Positions 58,547 to 63,941 of a stretch of DNA of 64,000 nt are shown here, one piece after another. A model generated the notes under the pieces. The model made no database searches. It was not told the origin of the DNA and worked only from the letters and a program-made list of their open reading frames with translations. Source of the stretch: Prochlorococcus sp. AG-347-K16 (GTDB lineage Bacteria; Cyanobacteriota; Cyanobacteriia; PCC-6307; Cyanobiaceae); NCBI GenBank assembly GCA_003281405.1, contig QCCD01000001.1, positions 1 to 64,000 on the forward strand, in the 5' to 3' direction. Made by a program: the position numbers and the translations under genes. The first letter of the stretch is position 1, and each line of letters begins with the position of its first letter.

Positions 58547-59620
58547 TTACTTAAATCCCTTAGAAAAAAGGTTAGTCCGAACTTTAAATTTCCATACATT
58601 TACCACGCCTTTTGCGTTAACTGCTGCAAGTGCACAATCATCAGGTCTCCAGGATATTGCCCCTACTAGATCCCCTGCGAATGCAGCCCCAACTGGGTCC
58701 CCATTACCGTCTTTTTTTAGAAAACTTGCGACAACAGAACCATCCCTAGATCCCGAGGCTACAAGCATACCTTTATTTGAAAAGGCTAGGCTCGAAATAG
58801 GTTCTGTATGGTGACATAGCTCTCCTGGCATAGTGCCCTCCGGACCATTCCCTATAAAGCTCCATACTGTGATTCTTTCACTGCCACTTGTCGCTAATAA
58901 TTTTCCGCTGTCATCAAAAGAAAGGTGACTTGGTTTTCCAGGGTATCCAGTCATTTCAGCATCCATTCCTGTTGATCTTCTCCAAAAATGAACTGAATTG
59001 TCTTGACTCCCACAGGCGACTATATCTCCATCTGGGCTTAATTCCATAGAGACCAATGATCCTTGCCACTCGAGTTTTTGATTCGTTTTATTATTAACTA
59101 TGTCAAAGAATGTCACTCTGCCGTAGCATGCAGTTGCCAGCTCATTTTTATTTGACCATGTTATTGCACTTACTGTGCTTGGATGGTCTTCTGAGATCCA
59201 TTTCTCTTCTCCAATTTCATTAAAAACGTATACTTTTTTTGAGGAAGCTATCGCTAGAAATAAACCGTCATTAGACCACTTGAGGTGTTCCACCCAGACC
59301 TTACCAAGATCAAGCGTTTTAATTACTTTACCTTCGTGGCAATTGCAAATTTGAACTTTTCCATCCTGACCTGATGTTGCAAAAATTTCACCCTCTGGAT
59401 GAATTGCCATCGCTAGTAGACCACCAGAGTGAGTATTTTCTTTTTCCCAAATAATTTTTCCAGTATCTCCTTCGAATGCAAAAAGACCTCCTACCACGTC
59501 GCCAACAATAAATTGTTTACCTTTAAGAGCCCAGCCGCATGCTATTGCGTAATCGTTAACTTCAGCTGTCCATCCCTCGTGGAACATCCCTCTTGGGCTA
59601 AATGATTCTATATCAGGCAT
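58547..59620 (-). CDS. WD40-repeat protein
   Basis: Repeated GH/WD-like units, e.g. MELSPDGDIVACGSQDNSVHFW, SSLAFSNKGMLVASGSRDGSVV. Confidence 0.9.
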   Translation of the reverse strand: MPDIESFSPRGMFHEGWTAEVNDYAIACGWALKGKQFIVGDVVGGLFAFEGDTGKIIWEKENTHSGGLLAMAIHPEGEIFATSGQDGKVQICNCHEGKVIKTLDLGKVWVEHLKWSNDGLFLAIASSKKVYVFNEIGEEKWISEDHPSTVSAITWSNKNELATACYGRVTFFDIVNNKTNQKLEWQGSLVSMELSPDGDIVACGSQDNSVHFWRRSTGMDAEMTGYPGKPSHLSFDDSGKLLATSGSERITVWSFIGNGPEGTMPGELCHHTEPISSLAFSNKGMLVASGSRDGSVVASFLKKDGNGDPVGAAFAGDLVGAISWRPDDCALAAVNAKGVVNVWKFKVRTNLFSKGFK

Positions 59621-60963
59621 TTTTCAAAACCTTCACGCATCTCTTTCTCGTCCAAATTCCTACCTATAAAAACAAGTTGGTTTCTACGAGGTTCGTTACC
59701 CCATTCTTTATCAGGTTGTGCTGTAAATAACATATGTACCCCTTGGAAAACTATTCTCTGTGGGTTTCCTGCGTAGCTAATGAAACCTTTTGTTCTAAAA
59801 ATATCCACCCCTTTTTCAGAAAGAAGTCTGCCCAACCAAGTATTAAGTTTTTCTGGATCAACATCTCCAAATCGTTCAATTGCAATTGACGTTACTTCAT
59901 CATCGTGTTCGTGCTCAGCTTGCCAGAATCTTTCAATATTAAATGGAATCTCTTTTGAATTATTTTCTTCACTTTTAATGATTTTCATATTGAATTCTTC
60001 AGCAGTGTGCTGTGTATATAAACCTATCTTTGATTCCTTTTCGATGTTTAATATGAATGATTTATTTCCTTTATCCTCCAATTTAAGATTTATATGTTCT
60101 CCAAATGGAATGATATTCTCAGGTTCTAAGCTTTTAGCATTTTCTGCATAAAGTCTTACGGAGTATTCAGCACCATCTTTGAGTTCCTTTTCACTCTCAC
60201 CTTGGTTAGCGAGAGCTACTAAGGACATTTCTGGGTCTGGTCCTTCCTCCAGGATTAATTCATATTTACCAGCATCAAGATCGTAAACTCCTGTCCATTC
60301 AAAGGGATATTCTGGTTCAAGAAATGTTGGTCTGCGTTTAAGGATCTGATCGAGATCAAATGCACTTAGATTTAGGACTGTTTCGATGGGTACTTGGGCA
60401 TTCTCGGCTCGAATGATTCGAGTCATTCTGTTCATATCTCTCAACCTCGATTCAAGAGTATCTAGAGCATCATCAGAGACTAAATCAGTTTTATTTAGGA
60501 CAAGAACATCTGCAAATGCAACTTGCTCTGAACTTTCATCACTTCTTCCTAATTGCTGATCAATATGTGCAGCATCAACTAAAGTTACAATTCCATCAAG
60601 AGTAAATTCGGAACTAATTTCTTCATCCATGAAAAAAGTCTGAGCAACTGGCCCAGGATCTGCTAACCCTGTCGTTTCTACTAAAACATAGTCAAACTTA
60701 TCTCTCCTTTTCATAAGGTTGCCAAGGACTCTTATTAGATCACCGCGAACAGTACAACAAATGCACCCATTTGACATCTCAAATACTTCTTCATCGGCAT
60801 TAATTACGAGCCCTTGATCTATACCTACTTCACCGTATTCATTCTCAATTACGGCTATTCTTTTCCCGTGCTCTTCACTTAATATCCTATTAAGCAAAGT
60901 AGTCTTCCCTGAGCCTAAGAATCCAGTGAGGATGGTTACGGGAACTTTATCTTTGATGCTCAT
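59608..60963 (-). CDS. CobW/COG0523 GTPase (putative zinc metallochaperone)
   Basis: TGFLGSGKTTLLN P-loop, NGCICCTVRGDL CxCC metal motif, VETTGLADPGPV, CobW_C. Confidence 0.95.
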   Translation of the reverse strand: MSIKDKVPVTILTGFLGSGKTTLLNRILSEEHGKRIAVIENEYGEVGIDQGLVINADEEVFEMSNGCICCTVRGDLIRVLGNLMKRRDKFDYVLVETTGLADPGPVAQTFFMDEEISSEFTLDGIVTLVDAAHIDQQLGRSDESSEQVAFADVLVLNKTDLVSDDALDTLESRLRDMNRMTRIIRAENAQVPIETVLNLSAFDLDQILKRRPTFLEPEYPFEWTGVYDLDAGKYELILEEGPDPEMSLVALANQGESEKELKDGAEYSVRLYAENAKSLEPENIIPFGEHINLKLEDKGNKSFILNIEKESKIGLYTQHTAEEFNMKIIKSEENNSKEIPFNIERFWQAEHEHDDEVTSIAIERFGDVDPEKLNTWLGRLLSEKGVDIFRTKGFISYAGNPQRIVFQGVHMLFTAQPDKEWGNEPRRNQLVFIGRNLDEKEMREGFEKCLI

Positions 60964-61040
60964 TTACAGATTTTTACTAAATAAACAATAGTTTAATAAT
61001 AGTAATAATAAGAAATGAAAACCGTTTTTATTAGAAAAAT

Positions 61041-62585
61041 TTAATCTGAAAGTTTGTACCATTCAGACTCAAGATTGGAGCCAGATTCTTTATCACAACT
61101 TCCTCCTAATGAATCAACAATTGTGCAAGTGTTGTGAACAGCTACTGAAACCGTATTCCCGTCCATCATCAATCCATCAACGAATATTTGATTAGAAGCT
61201 AAAGGAACCGAACTTTGTCTACTTAAGTTTCTTAATAACTTAGATGCTGGAATTTGTTCAGGAAATATTGCCTGAACTTTCTTTTCATCTAACATTTTCA
61301 AAGTAGAACTTATGTTCTCTGGCCTTAAGCTTGAGGAGTCTCCAAGAAAGTCAAGTAAACTAATAGTTTCAATACCAAAAGCATCACCGTAGTATTCCAT
61401 TGCTTTGTGTTTAGAGACAATTACTCTGTTTTCCTCAGGAATAGAGCTTACTTGTTCGACGATCCAACTATCTAAGCCTTCTAAGAGTGAATCGGCTTTT
61501 TCAAATTTTTCATTAATTAATTTTCTGTCCCCTCTATTAAAAACTGAAATATCTTTCTTTAAACTTTTGCTTATAACATCTCCCATTTTTATGATGTTAT
61601 GTGGATCATGCCATACATGTGGATCTAGACCTCCATGGTCATGATGGTGATGATGTCCCTCTCCTTCGTCTGGTACTTGTGCTATTGGCTCGACATCACT
61701 ATTTAAAACATCTTTAAAGAAGTGTTGAGTTGCTTCAAACTCAAAAGGCATGTGTTCAGTAAAAAATATATATTCACCATCTTCTTTGATATCCACATTA
61801 AAAACAGTGCTTTCTTTTCTTTGATCAAAGTTAAGAATAAAAGCTTTATTACTTGCGATCAAAGTACCATTATTTTTTCTGCTTATTGATTCTTTAGATC
61901 CTAATAATTCTTTAGCTAAATCTTCAGATCCTTCTATATCATTAGACTTGAGAATTACCATCTTCATTGCAGGATCTGCATATTCTCCATCGACTTTTTC
62001 AAATGACCATTTGTATGAACCCTTAGAAAGTTGGAATTTACCTGCCCATTCGAAAGCACCCTCAGCATGATCATCATGTCCTCCATGGTCTGAATGATCA
62101 TCATGACCTCCATGATCAGAATGATCATCTACCTTAGCTGAATGTTCAGCATGATCATCATGTCCACCATGGTCTGAGTGGTCATCGTGACCTTCATGAT
62201 CAGAATGATCATCTACGTCTATTGCACTAACACCTACAACAACAGTATTCTTTTTACTTTCCCAATTTCTCATACTTGGGGTCATTTCTTTGCCAAGAGT
62301 GAATACTTTGTCTGCGCTATTTAGTAATTGAGCTTGTCTTGGATTGATCTTTAAATCATGAACATCCTGTTTTCTATCTACTAGGCATGTAACTTCGTCA
62401 GATGATAATGCAATTGATTTAACTAAATCACAAACTAGTGGTTCAACTGCAACGTATGACTTTCCTTTAGCCATGACATCTTGCCCAAAACCAGAAAATA
62501 TAATCGTTCCAGCGATTACGGAATTTTTAATAATTGACTTACTTGAACCTTTTTTATTTGATAAAAGTCTTTTAAAAATTGACAT
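61041..62585 (-). CDS. znuA: Zinc ABC transporter substrate-binding protein with His-rich repeats and an inserted ~110-aa domain
   Basis: YVAVEPLVCDLVKSIALSSDEVTCLV, LDPHVWHDPHNIIKMGD, VIVSKHKAMEYYGDAFGIE; HDDHSDHGG repeats. Confidence 0.92.
   Translation of the reverse strand: MSIFKRLLSNKKGSSKSIIKNSVIAGTIIFSGFGQDVMAKGKSYVAVEPLVCDLVKSIALSSDEVTCLVDRKQDVHDLKINPRQAQLLNSADKVFTLGKEMTPSMRNWESKKNTVVVGVSAIDVDDHSDHEGHDDHSDHGGHDDHAEHSAKVDDHSDHGGHDDHSDHGGHDDHAEGAFEWAGKFQLSKGSYKWSFEKVDGEYADPAMKMVILKSNDIEGSEDLAKELLGSKESISRKNNGTLIASNKAFILNFDQRKESTVFNVDIKEDGEYIFFTEHMPFEFEATQHFFKDVLNSDVEPIAQVPDEGEGHHHHHDHGGLDPHVWHDPHNIIKMGDVISKSLKKDISVFNRGDRKLINEKFEKADSLLEGLDSWIVEQVSSIPEENRVIVSKHKAMEYYGDAFGIETISLLDFLGDSSSLRPENISSTLKMLDEKKVQAIFPEQIPASKLLRNLSRQSSVPLASNQIFVDGLMMDGNTVSVAVHNTCTIVDSLGGSCDKESGSNLESEWYKLSD
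62063..62220. repeat. In-frame duplicated His/Asp-rich coding repeat inside znuA (84-nt period)
   Basis: cagcatgatcatcatgtcc(t/a)ccatggtctga(a/g)tg(a/g)tcatc... occurs at 62063 and again at 62147; encodes DDHSDHxGHDDHSDHGGHDDHAE twice. Confidence 0.9.
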
Positions 62586-62609
62586 AAAAAGTTATTAAAT
62601 ACTTAAAAA

Positions 62610-62624
62610 TGATAATCATTTTCA
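62610..62624. promoter_or_regulatory. Putative Zur box
   Basis: TGATAATCATTTTCA, near-perfect 7-1-7 inverted repeat in the znuA-znuC divergent intergenic region; zur gene nearby. Confidence 0.7.
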
Positions 62625-62722: not shown

Positions 62723-63493
62723 ATGGCTACTTTAGTCGCTGAAAATTTAACATTTGCATACACAAAAAAAAGTAAGCCAGCTTTAAATAAGGTATCGGTT
62801 GAGATTAAACCTGGAACTCTAACAGCGCTAGTAGGTCCAAATGGTGCCGGTAAATCCACTCTTTTGAGGATATTGCAAGGACAAAATACTCCAGATAAAG
62901 GCGATATAAAAATTGACGGTGAAAATTTATATAGATCTAGAGCTTTAGTGGCACTTATGCCTCAAAGAAGTTCTATGAATTGGAAGTTTCCCATCACAGT
63001 TGAAAAATTGGTATCTCTTGGTCAAATAAAGTATTCAAAATCAAGAAGTAATAACCCCTTTCAAATCAAGGCTCTTCTAGAATATCCTAATTCTTGGATT
63101 AATAAATGTTGTGAATTAGAAGCGACAATGCAAAGAGTAGGAATTGCTAATTTGGCTAATAGAAGATTAGATTCTCTTTCAGGAGGACAGCAACAAAGAG
63201 CTCTATTAGCAAAAACTCTTATGTCCCCTGCAAAAATATTTCTTCTGGATGAACCTTGTGCGGCATTGGATCCCCCCGCAAAAGAGGACTTCCTGAAAAT
63301 TGTTCGTCAACTCGCAGATGCGGGACTTTCTTTACTCGTAAGTAGCCATGATTGGGGCGAGTCTCTAAATAATTATGATCAAGTAATAGTTCTTGATAAA
63401 AGCGTTTTAGCAGTTGGTAGTCCTGATCAAATAAAAGATAAATTAGATGCGATAAACATAAGCTCTATAAAGGAAAATAATTTCTGTGATTAG
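62723..63493 (+). CDS. znuC: Zinc ABC transporter ATP-binding protein
   Basis: VGPNGAGKSTLLRIL Walker A, LSGGQQQRALLAKTL signature, LLDEPCAALD. Confidence 0.93.
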   Translation: MATLVAENLTFAYTKKSKPALNKVSVEIKPGTLTALVGPNGAGKSTLLRILQGQNTPDKGDIKIDGENLYRSRALVALMPQRSSMNWKFPITVEKLVSLGQIKYSKSRSNNPFQIKALLEYPNSWINKCCELEATMQRVGIANLANRRLDSLSGGQQQRALLAKTLMSPAKIFLLDEPCAALDPPAKEDFLKIVRQLADAGLSLLVSSHDWGESLNNYDQVIVLDKSVLAVGSPDQIKDKLDAINISSIKENNFCD

Positions 63494-63506: not shown

Positions 63507-63941
63507 TTAATTTTGAGCTTGATAACAGTTTTGGCAAAGGCCGAAATATTCGAGTGTATGAAACAAAAGCTGAAACTTTCTTGGATTTTTTTTAGGGGCA
63601 TGAATATTTTTAACAGGACAACCTTCCATTTTCGACGTCTCTCCGCATTGAACGCAGGTCAAATGATGAATATCTCTGTCTACGGGAGTATAAAGGACCT
63701 CTCCTGTTGGGAGATGTCTGGAACGAATTAATCCATGCTTTATCAAGATTTGCAGATTTCTATAAACAGTGGTCAACCCCATAGATTTGCCTTTTGTGAT
63801 CAACTGCCTATGCAATTCTTGACCGCTCAATTCATCCTCGCATTTATTAAGTTCTTCAAGAAGTTGTTCTTGTCTTTTGGTAATGTCAGACTTAGTCACC
63901 ATTGTTTCCAAAATCTTTTTTTGTCTCGTATTTTTGATCAT
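63507..63941 (-). CDS. zur: Fur-family regulator, probably Zur (true start possibly MVTKSDITKRQ)
   Basis: GLTTVYRNLQILIKHGLIRSR, HHLTCVQCGETSKMEGC, GLCQNC Cys pairs; adjacent to znu genes. Confidence 0.88.
   Translation of the reverse strand: MIKNTRQKKILETMVTKSDITKRQEQLLEELNKCEDELSGQELHRQLITKGKSMGLTTVYRNLQILIKHGLIRSRHLPTGEVLYTPVDRDIHHLTCVQCGETSKMEGCPVKNIHAPKKNPRKFQLLFHTLEYFGLCQNCYQAQN

Follow-up and report, generated by a model that had tools for sequence, protein, structure and literature searches.

How the GTPases of the COG0523 family and extracytoplasmic zinc-binding proteins are loaded with metal, and how they hand it over, is an open question, and a locus of Prochlorococcus sp. AG-347-K16 raises it in an unusual form. 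The window, that is, the whole stretch of 64,000 nucleotides that was analysed (contig QCCD01000001.1, positions 1 to 64,000), contains neighbouring genes for a ZnuA-type zinc-binding protein and a CobW-type GTPase. A preliminary description proposed that the two proteins share an embedded segment of 109 and 110 amino acids, at 59977-60303 in the CobW gene and 61725-62054 in the znuA gene, and suggested a zinc-binding or docking module. Are these segments one domain, and if so, what would it do in two such different proteins?

Both open reading frames and both segments are found at these positions. The GTPase gene (59608-60963, minus strand) encodes 451 amino acids with a GTPase domain at residues 8-184 (PF02492, 2e-61) and a CobW_C domain at 358-450 (PF07683, 2e-25), so that the segment does lie between the two, as had been described. 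These domains, the GCxCC motif (NGCICCTVRGD) and a best fold match to YjiA identify the protein as a COG0523/CobW GTPase. The znuA gene (61041-62585, minus strand) encodes a cluster A-I binding protein of 514 amino acids, with PF01297 on either side of the insert and a DPHVW motif; its segment interrupts the His-rich loop ahead of DPHVWHDP, with His-rich repeats on both sides. A WD40 beta-propeller gene (Pfam WD40; 58547-59620, minus strand) follows cobW on its 3' side and overlaps its end by 13 nt. Divergent from znuA is znuC (62723-63493, plus strand; Pfam ABC), the ATPase of the zinc ABC importer, followed by a gene for a FUR-family regulator (63507-63941, minus strand; Pfam FUR), presumably Zur from its place, and beyond it a permease-like gene, the presumed znuB. 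The same genome encodes a second, module-free ZnuA-family metal-binding protein with its own ABC genes (contig C21:5782-6678).

At the level of single sequences, the likeness between the two segments is modest. They share only 28% identity overall, and direct BLASTP gave 5e-6 as a single comparison, in which the first 35 residues are 40% identical. When the whole genome was searched with the CobW segment, the ZnuA segment was the sole other match, with a weak E value of 0.29, and no third copy was found. Given this weak match, it is the comparison of profiles that makes the homology decisive: 85 CobW modules aligned by hhalign with 24 picocyanobacterial ZnuA modules gave a probability of 99.1% and a score of 101.8, compared to a best score of 18.1 among 100 column-shuffled controls. 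Separate searches of a plasmid collection with each segment reached largely the same remote proteins, namely haloarchaeal zinc-binding proteins, solo haloarchaeal proteins and an Alicyclobacillus membrane protein; the CobW segment also matched CobW proteins of Pantoea and Paraburkholderia. The homology of the two segments, and thus one common module, is well supported.

Two alignments, one of 51 CobW sequences and one of 20 ZnuA sequences, served separately as input for AlphaFold modelling. The CobW model has a mean pLDDT of 87.9, with the module mostly above 90, and predicts strands at 223-229, 232-238 and 245-251, a helix at 258-272 and further strands at 277-279, 290-294, 301-307, 311-317, 327-332, 335-339 and 343-346. 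Overall confidence is low for the ZnuA model (mean pLDDT 59; about 61-90 within the module), which predicts strands at 178-186, 189-196 and 206-213, a helix at 217-229 and strands at 234-238, 248-252, 259-266 and 270-277. In these predicted models the strands and the helix, compared by their positions along the sequence, follow the same order. The preliminary description had named a missing profile-profile match or different predicted folds as grounds for abandoning a common module; the profile match is strong and the element order is the same. Its limits for the segments hold for the core positions, but the predicted fold extends beyond them by about 20 residues, as far as about residue 346 in CobW and 305 in ZnuA. 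The module is thus predicted to be a beta-rich domain of about 125 amino acids with eight or nine strands and one helix, corresponding to residues about 221-350 of CobW (59914-60303, minus strand) and about 178-306 of ZnuA (61668-62054, minus strand).

The family is apparently undescribed and unnamed. No Pfam-A, NCBIfam or PHROG model matched the module region significantly, no PDB sequence matched it, profile searches of the PDB returned nothing significant, and no module was found in phage records. Matches to the Pfam models DUF7244 and LolA were weak, fell far under the cut-off and were rejected. The Foldseek matches listed were to the carriers (YjiA and HypB for CobW; MtsA, MntC and AztC for ZnuA), with none to the module itself.

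The module family is mobile and extends far beyond cyanobacteria, more widely than the preliminary description had envisaged. A scan of 85,462 genomes, which used a subset of a 14-member alignment (the full set being too diverse) and the pattern [WF]EW[GA]G[LI]YxL, left 80 loci. CobW GTPases carry the module in 58 of them (some incomplete), corresponding to more than 50 proteins in about ten phyla: Chloroflexota, Poribacteria, Verrucomicrobiota, Acidobacteriota, Actinomycetota, Myxococcota, Pseudomonadota, Planctomycetota, SAR324 and Cyanobacteriota. The other carriers are 17 haloarchaeal ZnuA proteins, three solo haloarchaeal lipoproteins with His-rich flanks, one membrane protein with a His-rich loop and one CDF efflux pump with the module at its C-terminus. 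Module-bearing ZnuA proteins occur in cyanobacteria, SAR324, Verrucomicrobiota and haloarchaea, sometimes with two modules in tandem. The search across cyanobacteria that the preliminary description had proposed found the module in 25 of 340 genomes sampled across the phylum, and among these the ZnuA form was never present without the CobW form. Nearly all carriers are metal proteins or lie amid metal genes, with neighbours that include ZnuA, ABC-3 permeases, ZIP, FUR and HupE/UreJ, and they span the cytoplasm, the periplasm and the archaeal surface. For example, a SAR324 locus (L115) encodes a FUR protein, a module CobW and a ZnuA that carries two modules in tandem, and a Verrucomicrobia locus (L089) combines a module CobW, a WD40 gene, a module ZnuA and an ABC ATPase gene.

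Several other observations were made at these loci. Solo module lipoproteins lie directly downstream of urease accessory genes at L074:3872-4423 and L125:4872-5438, which suggests nickel in these lineages. On a Pantoea soli plasmid, a CobW-module gene (L070:6001-6327) is disrupted by stops and frameshifts, and a nickel transporter, a transcriptional repressor and zigA are found near it. Chloroflexota ZnuA/AztC-like proteins near module CobWs (L091:2431-4080 and L095:7291-8832) carry another long His-loop insert, which has no Pfam match and a very weak likeness to the module. An 872-amino acid ZnuA (L197) contains a run of N and was treated as an assembly artefact.

Conservation within the module was assessed in 68 non-redundant copies (CobW numbering). 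E222, W223, G225, H319, E323 and F324 are invariant, D243 is conserved in 99%, and no Cys-rich column was found. The invariance of the FEWxG motif is partly by construction, as the scan pattern required this N-terminal part; the conservation of D243, H319, E323 and F324 is independent of the pattern. The equivalents of D243, H319 and E323 in ZnuA are D204, H278 and E282.

Compared to CobW proteins of the same loci without the module, of which 25 of 31 have a stretch of at least four His in 12 residues, 52 of 55 module CobWs have no such stretch outside the module (Fisher 6e-13, uncorrected for relatedness). ZnuA orthologues within the genus have, at the same place, no module (365-397 amino acids), one (about 514) or two (613), and the number of His outside the module has medians of 20-22 with none or one and is 11-12 in the only two proteins with two. 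In ZnuA, long His repeats are kept beside the module, which indicates that there the module supplements rather than replaces the His loop. In three modules from gammaproteobacteria, the loop at the conserved Asp contains a His-rich insert. One genome (G337) has two ZnuA paralogues (L203 and L204): one is module-free, lies at the usual place and has long His repeats, and the other, which bears the module, lies elsewhere in the genome with its own perfect Zur box.

Among the cyanobacteria sampled, the WD40 gene strictly accompanies the module. A search with the WD40 protein found it in exactly the same 25 module genomes out of 330 cyanobacterial genomes, an overlap that was tested without correction for relatedness. 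At 30 of 56 CobW loci it directly follows cobW, mostly with the same overlap of 12 nt, and no WD40 neighbour was found at the solo, haloarchaeal ZnuA, CDF and membrane-protein loci. By eye, the WD40 protein of the window has no evident signal peptide. A model of AztD, if the library contains one, is not among the NCBIfam matches listed for its gene. A single CobW-WD40 reading frame at L103 looks like a deletion or an assembly join and was not taken as a proven fusion.

Co-regulation by Zur is supported by the interval between znuA and znuC, which contains a perfect match (62604-62624, plus strand) to the RegPrecise cyanobacterial Zur consensus taken from PMC9337993; 0.35 matches are expected in the window at up to two mismatches. 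In Synechococcus WH8102, Zur represses the znu cluster together with two genes of unknown function further downstream (PMC9337993), synw0972 and synw0973, which may be the cobW and WD40 orthologues. In another genome of the same family (G265), the CobW form lies away from znu and has its own near-match Zur box just upstream. Two more perfect Zur boxes were seen about 1 kb past the WD40 gene in a relative (G023, L159:10191-10261), and a second match to a shorter Zur-like pattern occurs in the genome of the window (G000, contig C30:713-727).

Compared to known systems, the module shows several similarities and differences. First, the His-rich loop of cluster A-I proteins such as ZnuA (the D-loop in AztC) occupies the same place, and we propose for the module the same role of collecting zinc or accepting it from a chaperone; the loop is a flexible His repeat, whereas the module is folded and combines a single invariant His with Asp and Glu. 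Second, the His-rich stretch of COG0523 proteins (CobW, YjiA, ZigA) usually lies, in module-free relatives, between the GTPase and CobW_C domains, the module's own place, and nearly all module-bearing members are without it. Haas et al. (2009, PMC2770081) described COG0523 subfamily 5 as clustering with WD40-repeat genes and znuABC, with some members downstream of Zur sites; the window agrees with this subfamily by its WD40/znu/Zur gene context alone, and the searched part of that paper's text makes no mention of an inserted module. Third, AztC cannot take over zinc from the AztD propeller if its D-loop, or any one of the three His in that loop, is lost (PMC7463823). Here too a beta-propeller is paired with a zinc protein, but AztD is periplasmic, while the WD40 gene of the window is coupled to the GTPase gene and not to the binding-protein gene. 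Finally, the ZinT domain of AdcA and ZrgA are also extra zinc-recruiting units tied to a zinc importer, but no model of either matched the module region, and a weak ZrgA match falls on the His-rich stretch 86-179.

Collectively, the evidence favours metal handling, on account of the His-loop position, the occurrence of the carriers in different compartments and the invariant or nearly invariant Asp, His and Glu; the zinc-binding or docking function that was first suggested is an inference. We consider it fairly probable that the module does in folded form what the His-rich metal-loading loop does, holding metal and then handing it over. The invariant Asp, His and Glu would bind Zn(II), and in some lineages perhaps Ni(II), for a short time, with the Glu of FEW as a possible fourth ligand. 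In the ZnuA form, the metal would pass from the module to the ZnuA cleft for import by ZnuBC; in the CobW form, it would pass to the CxCC site of the GTPase and from there to client enzymes; the WD40 propeller would probably be one of these clients or a partner in the transfer. For a tight zinc site one would expect more than a single invariant His, and the site is putative. A broader version, on which we place somewhat less than even weight, is a metal-relay domain of bacteria and archaea that stands in, in folded form, for His-rich loops and that cells graft into importers, exporters, chaperone GTPases and secreted lipoproteins; the GTPase form would then have a dedicated partner for transfer in the cytosolic WD40 propeller.

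Alternatively, the module may be a docking domain, itself metal-free, whose conserved face is bound by a partner in metal transfer (for CobW, for instance, the WD40 propeller), much as the AztC D-loop enters the AztD propeller. The identical genome sets of module and WD40 gene, their adjacency at 30 of 56 CobW loci and the correspondence of the ZnuA insertion site to a loop essential for transfer from AztD all speak for this. However, the carriers reside in the cytoplasm, the periplasm and the archaeal surface with unrelated partners, the solo, haloarchaeal ZnuA, CDF and membrane-protein forms stand without a WD40 neighbour, and docking alone leaves the replacement of His stretches unexplained, so that we regard it as unlikely. 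Still less probable is a structural spacer or stabiliser that was inserted where loops tolerate it and plays no direct role in metal traffic: the ZnuA and CobW loops do tolerate length variation, and some ZnuA orthologues are without the module altogether, but near-invariant D, H, E and F across bacteria and archaea, the existence of solo proteins and the nearly uniform metal-related nature of the carriers argue against it.

In a tree of the modules, which rests on few columns and has uncertain deep forks, ZnuA and solo modules form one group (96/81) apart from the CobW modules, among which the membrane-protein and CDF modules are placed; the separate groups indicate that the pair in the window is an ancient split and not a recent copy within the genome. 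Chance likeness, or recent copying of a segment into the neighbouring gene, might have been suggested by the low identity and the weak genome match, but it is refuted by the profile scores, the shared far relatives and the grouping of ZnuA modules with those of other phyla, and can be dismissed.

His-rich metal-handling loops lack order and are difficult to study; with a folded equivalent, which offers about four candidate ligands, the transfer step would become directly testable. The WD40 gene, already known beside COG0523 genes, is now linked to one defined feature of the GTPase, and the module flags uncharacterised haloarchaeal lipoproteins and a membrane protein as candidates for metal handling. 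For marine picocyanobacteria, it provides a candidate metal-transfer module common to the extracytoplasmic part of a zinc importer and a cytosolic chaperone.
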